From the NCBI RefSeq assembly GCF_015523185.1, contig NZ_WAKV01000048.1:1-43440 (forward strand): DNA of 43,440 nt, in the 5' to 3' direction. A program made the translations under genes and the position numbers. The stretch comes from Thermococcus sp. GTDB lineage: Archaea > Methanobacteriota_B > Thermococci > Thermococcales > Thermococcaceae. The notes under the pieces are model-generated. The model searched no databases, had not been told where the DNA came from, and saw only the letters and a program-made list of their open reading frames with translations. Positions 6,075 through 42,675 of this stretch are shown one piece after another; position 1 is the first letter of the stretch, and each line of letters starts with the position of its first letter.

Positions 6075-6397
6075 AGCCCTCCCCCTTCTTCCCTTAGTTT
6101 CTCCCTCTCCTTCTCGAGTTTCTTTTCGTCCTCAAAGAGCTTGGCCCTGTTTATAAAGGAAACCCTGCTGATGAGTTGAAGGGCGGTGTTCATAAATTTA
6201 CCAGCGAAGGCACCGATGATAGACGCGACCACGAGCAGACCAACGAAAAAGCCCGCCTCCCCCCAGCTGTATCTACCGAGGGTGTGAAGGGAGTAACCCA
6301 GGGCCCCGAGGATAAAGGCGAAGACACCCCCAACGAGAACAACGAGGAGAACCTTGTAGCCATAGCGCTCCATGAACAGCGCGAAGTCCACCTTCAT
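6068..6397 (-). CDS. small two-helix membrane protein, unknown function
   Basis: About 109 residues with two strong hydrophobic segments (residues about 15-37 and 49-70) and a charged C-terminal tail rich in Lys and Glu ([18 protein letters not shown]) that may form a coiled coil. I recognise no family. The start is uncertain. GTG at 6400, ATG at 6397 and GTG at 6391 are all in frame; GGTGAT at 6396-6401 would be well placed only for the GTG at 6391. A TATA-like GTAAATACTT lies near 6424-6433 on this strand. A box C/D RNA gene on the same strand ends about 45 bp upstream. Confidence 0.7.
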
Positions 6398-6442
6398 CAC
6401 CGATTTAACTTCTTCAAAAGAAAGTATTTACGCCTTTCGGTC

Positions 6443-6498
6443 GGGTCGGCCAGTGCCAGTCTCATCACACATCAGACCGGTAAACGCTCGTCATCCCC
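6443..6498 (-). ncRNA. box C/D guide RNA candidate 1 (leftward member of a divergent pair)
   Basis: Read on the minus strand the order is: G-run, box C ATGACGA (6494-6488), a 12-nt guide, box D' CTGA (6475-6472), 3 nt, box C' GTGATGA (6468-6462), a 12-nt guide, box D CCGA (6449-6446), then CCC. The G-run and CCC form a short terminal stem, and a single G precedes box C as in a kink-turn bulge. Two 12-nt spacers are the archaeal C/D sRNA norm. Boxes C and D both carry a U-to-C change at the positions that face each other in the kink-turn. The RNA would direct 2'-O-methylation; predicted target nucleotides are the G in ACCGG (D') and the U in CCAGU (D). Targets are not identified. Confidence 0.75.
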
Positions 6499-6516
6499 CT
6501 TCAAATTTTCCCATGT

Positions 6517-6527
6517 CTTTTTAAACC
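6517..6527. promoter_or_regulatory. shared bidirectional TATA element of the two box C/D RNA genes
   Basis: CTTTTTAAACC reads as a TATA box on both strands. Its centre (about 6522) is 24 bp from the predicted 5' end of the rightward RNA (6546) and 24 bp from that of the leftward RNA (about 6498). No other AT-rich box in 6499-6545 is suitably placed for either. One TATA sequence serving both directions is an inference from geometry. Confidence 0.55.
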
Positions 6528-6545
6528 CACCGACTAACAGGAGAC

Positions 6546-6602
6546 GGCCGATGACGAGCGTTAGCCACGCTGACGATGATGAAAAGAGGGTTAGCCGAGG
6601 CC
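6546..6602 (+). ncRNA. box C/D guide RNA candidate 2 (rightward member of a divergent pair)
   Basis: The order is GGCC stem (6546-6549), G, box C ATGACGA (6551-6557), a 12-nt guide, box D' CTGA (6570-6573), 2 nt, box C' ATGATGA (6576-6582), a 12-nt guide, box D CCGA (6595-6598), GGCC stem (6599-6602). The GGCC arms pair with each other. Two exact 12-nt spacers and the closing stem make chance unlikely. The D' guide predicts methylation of the G in CGUGG within a CGUGGCUAACGC-like target; the D guide predicts the C at position 5 of CUAACCCUCUUU. It shares 13 bases around box C with the leftward RNA, in inverted orientation. Its 3' end overlaps the last codons of the DUF2334 gene, which lies antisense. 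Confidence 0.78.
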
Positions 6603-7307
6603 ACTTTTTGAAACGAACCCCAGGAACTTCCTTAAAAACTCCATCCCGGCTTTGTTGTTAACGGCCTCCGGGTGGATTGAGAGGAAAAACGTCCAGTTCG
6701 TGTTCTCATAGGAGCTTTCGGCACTCGTGAGCTCGTATGGAAGAAGCAACGTGGGGGTATACCACGTGTATTCGTGGTTGTAGATGGGCTTAGTAGTTCC
6801 GTTCGGAAAGTAGATGAAATTCTCCCCAAGGACCGTGATATTGTGCTCAAGGAGAACATCCAGGGCTGGCCTTGAAAGGGAATACCTTGGGGCTATGAAG
6901 TACTTTGGCGTGAGGTTGAGATAGGAAAGGGCCCTTAAGCCCAGTTCGAGCTTCTTCTCGGCGACACTTGCGTTGCAGTTGAACTCATCTCCAATATGGG
7001 TGTATCCATGTAGCTCAATATGGTAACCCTCACGCTTTAACTCCCTGAGAAAGTCCATAAAAGTGCTGTACTTCCACATCGGCATCATTCCGCCGTGGTC
7101 AGGGATAACGAAGAGGTAAGTTCTGTTTTGAAGACCGTACTCATTTATAACGGCAGTTATGTTCCCCAGCTGTGGAAGATAAGCAGGGCTGACGTCGTGG
7201 ACGAGTATGGCAAAACGCCCAAAGGGTTGAATATAGGCCGGACTCGACAGGGAACTTGAGGATAAGAAAACCAAGAGAAATATGACGAACACGAGCAGTC
7301 TCTTCAT
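6591..7307 (-). CDS. secreted DUF2334 / polysaccharide-deacetylase-like protein
   Basis: A 238-residue protein with an N-terminal signal peptide or anchor (MKRLLVFVIFLLVFLSSSS) and a NodB-like fold. Metal and catalytic motifs are visible: the Asp motif ILVHDVSPA (about residue 36) and the H-x3-H motif ELHGYTH (about residue 98), then an APRYSLS element. DUF2334 proteins are distant relatives of polysaccharide deacetylases; the real substrate is unknown. NxT/NxS sequons are frequent, as expected for an exported archaeal glycoprotein. The last codons overlap the antisense box C/D RNA at 6546-6602. The gene follows the hydrolase on the same strand after 34 bp. Confidence 0.85.
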   Translation of the reverse strand: MKRLLVFVIFLLVFLSSSSLSSPAYIQPFGRFAILVHDVSPAYLPQLGNITAVINEYGLQNRTYLFVIPDHGGMMPMWKYSTFMDFLRELKREGYHIELHGYTHIGDEFNCNASVAEKKLELGLRALSYLNLTPKYFIAPRYSLSRPALDVLLEHNITVLGENFIYFPNGTTKPIYNHEYTWYTPTLLLPYELTSAESSYENTNWTFFLSIHPEAVNNKAGMEFLRKFLGFVSKSGLG

Positions 7308-27183: not shown

Positions 27184-27261
27184 TGGTGGGCCCGGGGGGC
27201 TTTGAACCCCCGACCACGCGGTTATGAGCCGCGCGCTCTGACCAGGCTGAGCTACGGGCCC
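27184..27261 (-). tRNA. tRNA with CAU anticodon (elongator Met or Ile2)
   Basis: A complete cloverleaf on the minus strand. The acceptor GGGCCCG pairs with CGGGCCC, the anticodon stem CGCGG/CCGCG encloses loop CTCATAA (anticodon CAU), the T-arm is GGGGG-TTCAAAG-CCCCC, and CCA is encoded. It is not the initiator, which in archaea begins AGCGGG. CAU could be elongator Met or, after agmatidine modification of C34, Ile for AUA codons. The GGGCCCG acceptor resembles archaeal tRNA-Ile, so Ile2 is a real alternative. It lies 5 bp behind tRNA-Asn and is surely co-transcribed with it. Confidence 0.93.
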
Positions 27262-27266
27262 ACTAC

Positions 27267-27342
27267 TGGCGCCGCCGCCCGGATTCGAACCGGGGACCGC
27301 CGGATTAACAGTCCGGCGCTCTACCAACTAAGCTACGGCGGC
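27267..27342 (-). tRNA. tRNA-Asn (GUU)
   Basis: A minus-strand cloverleaf of 76 nt with encoded CCA. The acceptor GCCGCCG pairs with CGGCGGC; the anticodon stem CCGGA/TCCGG holds loop CTGTTAA, giving anticodon GUU. It is transcribed from the TATA element at 27371-27380 together with the CAU tRNA that follows after 5 bp. Confidence 0.96.
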
Positions 27343-27370
27343 TCGACCCAATGTAGGGGATACAGGGGAC

Positions 27371-27380
27371 ATTTATAAAT
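27371..27380 (-). promoter_or_regulatory. TATA box of the tRNA-Asn / tRNA(CAU) unit
   Basis: ATTTATAAAT is a near-palindromic TATA box about 34 bp before the 5' end of tRNA-Asn on the minus strand. Confidence 0.55.
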
Positions 27381-27404
27381 TTTGCGGTTGGCAAAAGTAG
27401 AAAG

Positions 27405-27412
27405 ATTTATAA
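27405..27412 (+). promoter_or_regulatory. TATA box of tRNA-Thr
   Basis: ATTTATAA is centred about 31 bp before the tRNA-Thr 5' end. It is divergent from the tRNA-Asn promoter 30 bp away. Confidence 0.55.
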
Positions 27413-27439
27413 CTCTCAAATTAATCCTAAAAGCTGACT

Positions 27440-27516
27440 GCCCCGGTAGCCTAGCCTGGCGGGGCGGCGGACTTGTAATCCGCCGGTCGCGGGTTCAAAT
27501 CCCGCCCGGGGCTCCA
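27440..27516 (+). tRNA. tRNA-Thr (UGU)
   Basis: A plus-strand cloverleaf of 77 nt with encoded CCA. The acceptor GCCCCGG pairs with CCGGGGC; the anticodon stem GCGGA/TCCGC holds loop CTTGTAA, giving anticodon UGU for Thr. Its end is one base from the stop codon of the convergent tmk gene, so the two transcripts must overlap or end very precisely. Confidence 0.96.
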
Positions 27517-42614: not shown

Positions 42615-42675
42615 GGCCGATGATGAGCGGTTGGCCCGGCACTGAACCGTGCTGAGGGCCACCACTCCTGAGGCC
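42615..42675 (+). ncRNA. box C/D guide RNA candidate 3
   Basis: The order is GGCC stem (42615-42618), G, box C ATGATGA (42620-42626), a 15-nt guide, box D' CTGA (42642-42645), 3 nt, box C' GTGCTGA (42649-42655, one mismatch), a 12-nt guide, box D CTGA (42668-42671), GGCC stem (42672-42675). Boxes C and D are canonical, and the stem and unpaired G match candidate 2 exactly. Predicted methylation targets are the G at position 5 of GAGUGGUGGCCC (D) and of UGCCGGGCCAACC (D'). The C-D' spacer is a little longer than usual. The target RNA is not identified. Confidence 0.78.

Follow-up and report, generated by a model that had tools for sequence, protein, structure and literature searches.

The question raised by this locus was whether two guide RNA genes standing head to head can be served by one TATA element placed between them. 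The window, i.e., the whole stretch of DNA that was analyzed (43,440 nucleotides, contig NZ_WAKV01000048.1 of Thermococcus sp.), carries two genes for box C/D guide RNAs, sR34 and sR12, on opposite strands. We infer, with good confidence, that both RNAs are functional and that they are transcribed in opposite directions from this single TATA element. The guide RNAs are known and so is this kind of promoter, which is present here in an unusually well-conserved form; what is new is the comparison of the pair across 94 Thermococcaceae genomes.

The gene for sR34 (RF01273) was assigned to 6546..6602 on the + strand, with mature ends placed according to the terminal GGCC/GGCC pairing, and the gene for sR12 (RF01147) to 6443..6499 on the − strand, with mature ends placed according to the GGG/CCC termini. 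The covariance-model search of the window yielded matches at 6547-6600 (+) and 6445-6496 (−) with 84 bits (E 1e-14) and 46.3 bits (E 1e-6), respectively, both above the Rfam gathering thresholds of 40 bits for RF01273 and 38 bits for RF01147. When the whole genome was scanned, sR12 of the window reached only 32.8 bits, and the match ended at position 51. Boxes C, D′, C′, and D were read directly in this order in both RNAs, some of them in degenerate form (TGACGA, CCGA), which together with the Rfam scores confirmed the head-to-head pair of complete C/D RNAs proposed in the original prediction. The proposed length of 12 nt for all four guide spacers was also correct, and the same length was found in every copy that was parsed in the family (92 of 92 for sR34, 82 of 82 for sR12). 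A 13-mer, GATGACGAGCGTT, occupies 6550-6562, and its reverse complement was read at 6483-6495, exactly as predicted.

Neither RNA differed essentially in sequence, boxes, or guides from its Rfam family. Many Thermococcus copies of sR12 scored under the Rfam cut-off, probably because the D′-C′ spacer is often 11-12 nt and in some cases 21 nt, compared to about 4. The spacer of 21 nt was observed at loci L021, L024, L089, and L090 (genomes G026, G039, G041, and G029), for instance as GACCGCGCTCCGTGCGGCAC, which looks capable of forming a hairpin.

In T. kodakarensis, the same two RNAs have been named Tko-sR41 and Tko-sR42 (Jaeger et al. 2014, PMC4247193; PMC9014305). In the genome of this organism (G024), sR34 was located at 1226844-1226898. 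The circular RNAs tabulated in PMC9014305 are sR41 at 1226838-1226899 (62 nt) and sR42 at 1226948-1227017 (70 nt); read in G024, these coordinates begin exactly with GGCCGATGA and GGGGGATGA, i.e., with the sR34 and sR12 orthologues, respectively. In the same table, 1,967 and 12,085 small-RNA reads are aligned to sR41 and sR42, and start sites are listed at 1226903 (−) and 1226948 (+), which originate from Jaeger et al. 2014. According to these data of others, both RNAs exist in T. kodakarensis in the same divergent order, and their reported starts, 45 bp apart, flank one TATA sequence, TTTTAAAA, at 1226921-1226928. One difference concerned sR42, whose D′-C′ loop is longer than that of sR12 in the window, giving the circle of 70 nt. 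The original prediction could have failed for lack of transcripts; in the closest organism with data this was not so, since both orthologues are listed as detected RNAs.

A reading of the boxes as fortuitous matches, or as remnants of pseudogenes between genes, can be practically dismissed. The degenerate boxes and the weak BRE in the window's genome would fit such an explanation, but it disagrees with the E-values obtained, and it is refuted by the conservation of the boxes across tens of genomes, in which all parsed guides are 12 nt long, and by the fact that the T. kodakarensis orthologues have been detected as RNAs.

The near-palindromic TATA element TTTTTAAA lies at 6518..6525, within CTTTTTAAACC (6517-6527), in a position suitable for both sR34 and sR12. 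Its center at 6522 is 24 bp from each of the predicted 5′ ends (6546 and 6498), so that one TATA is situated midway between the divergent starts, in agreement with the predicted coordinates. sR34 was present in 92 of the 94 Thermococcaceae genomes, the remaining two being only 73-77% complete, and sR12 stood divergently beside it in 82 of these 92. For the window's own genus, 60 genomes were comparable, namely those in which both genes could be placed. All 60 retained the pair, with 58-61 bp between the two C boxes, and in all of them TTTTTAA was found 24-27 nt from the C box of sR12 and 25-27 nt from that of sR34. This heptamer corresponds to seven invariant columns of the spacer (2.0 bits each), whereas most other spacer columns carried less than 1 bit, the exceptions being a few isolated positions and the edges that adjoin the C boxes.

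The spacers themselves were of 57 different sequences among the 60 genomes. The flanking genes, judged from sequence clusters and from reading of the proteins, were of about three kinds on the left (thymidylate kinase, a glycine dehydrogenase subunit, and others) and of at least seven kinds on the right. The linkage of sR34 and sR12 is therefore not plain synteny, and the pair and its TATA element have been retained amid changing surroundings. The proposal of a symmetric TATA placed for two divergent C/D RNAs was thus supported by a geometry invariant through the genus and by the reported T. kodakarensis starts on both sides of the TATA sequence. A search for further divergent pairs of canonical C boxes around TTTAAA in 61 genomes of the genus revealed nothing recurrent, with one A+T-rich match in each of two genomes.

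While the TATA element is symmetric, the BREs are asymmetric. For their evaluation, a BRE+TATA scoring matrix was built from the tRNA promoters of the window's genome; with a near-identical matrix, tRNA promoters score about 13. The BRE position for sR12 (6526..6531, − strand) reads GGTGGG toward the TATA, and that for sR34 (6511..6516, + strand) is CCATGT. In the sR12 direction, the mean score of the genus was 10.2, which is good in most of its members and weak in the window (3.4). The sR34 direction was poor, with a genus mean of 3.9 and a value of 1.1 in the window, and its BRE was weak in those species that have only one TATA. It is mainly because the BRE is good on the sR12 side only that we do not place more confidence in a shared promoter. 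The spacings in T. kodakarensis also count against it, as the TATA sequence is 18 and 20 bp from the two reported start sites, compared to the usual 23.

Promoters of P. furiosus consist of a BRE (RRAAA) followed by a TATA box (WTTTAAAW), and some of the TATA boxes start transcription both ways, with starts separated by about 50 bp; this was demonstrated in vitro for PF1918, where the distance is 49 bp (PMC6640164). These bidirectional BRE-TATA-BRE promoters resemble the locus in the window in having a TTTAAA-type TATA midway between the starts. The second transcript in P. furiosus was taken as a non-functional antisense RNA, whereas both products of the pair described here are conserved guide RNAs; moreover, and unlike the P. 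furiosus case, the spacing is fixed genus-wide and one of the two sides has a poor BRE. The symmetric promoter had been predicted to be unusually compact. A single TATA does lie at a serving distance from both genes, but as two-way TATA promoters had already been described in P. furiosus (PMC6640164), this part of the claim stood only partially. Among the papers searched, no description of sR34 and sR12 as sharing one TATA was found.

Other lineages displayed different arrangements. In the sister genera g4 and g5 and in two Pyrococcus genomes (G009 and G005), the gap between the C boxes was 43-45 bp, and two separate TATA-like boxes were observed. These boxes are crossed, as the one near sR12 has the usual spacing to sR34 and vice versa, and the distance between each TATA and its own gene is about 23-29 nt. 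If the gap widens to about 60 bp, both boxes fall on the same position, and this state was found in the window's genus (g1) and in G012. Since G012 was placed at the base of Pyrococcus in the 23S tree, the promoter state must have changed at least twice.

In three Pyrococcus genomes that form a clade in the 23S tree (G004, G006, and G008; loci L003, L002, and L004), only 10 bp separate the C boxes. No promoter-like sequence was found between sR34 and sR12 in either direction in these genomes (scores of −10 and −14), and the pair is squeezed between two convergent genes, so that each RNA presumably originates from read-through, which would also copy the antisense of the other RNA. In Pyrococcus G007 and G011 (loci L116 and L118), an insertion of 44 bp, which contains an inverted repeat (as CCTCACCCTTTAGGGTGGG), separates sR34 from its TATA and shifts the latter to 70 nt. 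Consequently sR34, at least, can be produced when no TATA occupies the standard position, given the promoterless pairs on the one hand and the displaced TATA on the other.

It follows that the central TATA could drive sR12 alone, with sR34 either processed from an extended read-through RNA or initiated at a weak start of its own. Besides the persistence of sR34 without a properly placed TATA in the five Pyrococcus genomes named above, this would agree with the BRE, which favors sR12, and with the report that most archaeal C/D sRNAs studied lack their own promoter (Tripp 2017, as cited in PMC7994747). We nevertheless consider it unlikely. A start site at 1226903 is listed for the sR34 orthologue of T. 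kodakarensis, the TATA is 25-27 nt from the C box of sR34 in 60 of 60 genomes of the genus, and the nearest co-directional gene in the window ends about 470 nt upstream, with the intervening gene in the opposite orientation.

The origin of the pair is a separate matter and is compatible with a shared promoter in any case. To the original prediction, the pair looked like an inverted duplication with subsequently diverged guides; such an event would have copied a single guide RNA along with its promoter. The D′ guides of the two RNAs agree at 7 of 12 positions, which is expected by chance in about 1% of cases for one pair, and the outgroup genera g2 and g6 carry sR34 with sR12 absent. The shared 13-mer, however, is mostly C box (8 nt, plus five guide nucleotides, GCGTT), and a comparison of the D guides by eye gave agreement at the chance level only. 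Unrelated C/D families (sR28, sR1) also give each RNA a higher score than its partner's family does, and the guide of sR12 is additionally fixed by its rRNA target. A duplication therefore appears rather improbable and received weak support from these comparisons. Six g4 genomes likewise have sR34 and lack sR12. Genomes in which sR12 is missing beside sR34 yielded no intact sR12 guide at other places, and its relocation in these genomes was accordingly not supported.

Targets of the guides were searched in the rRNA of relatives because no 23S or 16S match was obtained in the window's own genome. The D guide of sR34, AAAGAGGGTTAG (6582..6593, + strand), forms 10 bp with ATAACCCTCTTA in helix 69 (23S 2022-2033). 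The site of its predicted methylation is a C, which, judging from the known sequence of helix 69, is equivalent to E. coli C1920. The D′ guide of sR12, GCGTTTACCGGT (approximately 6476..6487, − strand), forms 11 bp with ACCGGTAAACGG (23S 1999-2010), and its D guide, GACTGGCACTGG (approximately 6450..6461, − strand), forms 10 Watson-Crick pairs and one G-U pair with CCAGTGCCGGTA (23S 1958-1969). Three of the four guides thus match 23S within 76 nt, at about helices 67-71, and the sequences were nearly the same in 20 genomes. For each guide, the pairing score exceeded those of most, though not all, of 60 shuffled versions. As the score alone is insufficient against the shuffles, support for the targets comes from guide conservation together with the long stretch of uninterrupted pairing next to the D or D′ box. 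Helices 68-71 of domain IV are a reported hotspot of archaeal methylation (PMC7994747).

The remaining guide, the D′ guide of sR34 (GCGTTAGCCACG, approximately 6557..6568, + strand), is located between the C box and the D′ box CTGA, and its core, CGTTAGCCAC, was identical in all variants counted across the family. No match above shuffles was found for it in 16S, 23S, or 30 tRNAs. In four genomes, exact copies of GTGGCTAACG at other places were mostly within unrelated coding sequence. The core could also partly pair with the D guide of sR34 itself.

The shared use of the TATA element can be envisaged as follows. TBP would bind to the near-palindromic element midway between the genes, and TFB and RNA polymerase could then be recruited facing one way or the other, with transcription beginning about 20 bp from the element on each side and yielding sR34 on the + strand and sR12 on the − strand. 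Each transcript would begin at, or a few nucleotides from, the mature 5′ end. As expected from the known biology of C/D sRNAs, the products would form kink-turns and assemble with L7Ae, Nop5, and fibrillarin, and the resulting RNPs would direct 2′-O-methylation of 23S rRNA. Because the three paired sites lie in one 76-nt stretch, one small promoter would make guides for neighboring sites. Whether the TATA has been selected for its symmetry is evenly balanced in our judgment; one TBP site would then be kept genus-wide in order to make two guides for neighboring 23S sites in step, the sister lineages having changed to crossed promoters or to none, with read-through. If so, these arrangements would represent a natural series on the determinants of promoter direction in archaea. 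Two-way transcription from archaeal TATA elements has been described mainly as noise, whereas here both products are useful and the geometry is kept genus-wide. The three states of one gene pair (a shared TATA, two crossed TATAs, and no promoter) mean that the contributions of TATA symmetry, the BRE, and read-through to the production of small RNAs are directly testable in T. kodakarensis.

Several further features of the window were noted. A convergent neighboring gene (DUF2334) occupies 6591..7307 on the − strand, and its stop codon (6591-6593) lies inside sR34, which results in an antisense overlap of the gene and the RNA at their 3′ ends. A frame of 161 residues (6176-6661, + strand, TTG start), expected to be spurious, was present and is probably so, since it had no Pfam match and overlaps another ORF in the antisense direction. 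The window also holds a third C/D guide RNA of a known family, sR47 (RF01131, 50 bits), at 42616-42673 (+). At 27187-27513, the genes for tRNA-Met and tRNA-Asn (−) diverge from that for tRNA-Thr (+), the facing 5′ ends being about 97 bp apart.
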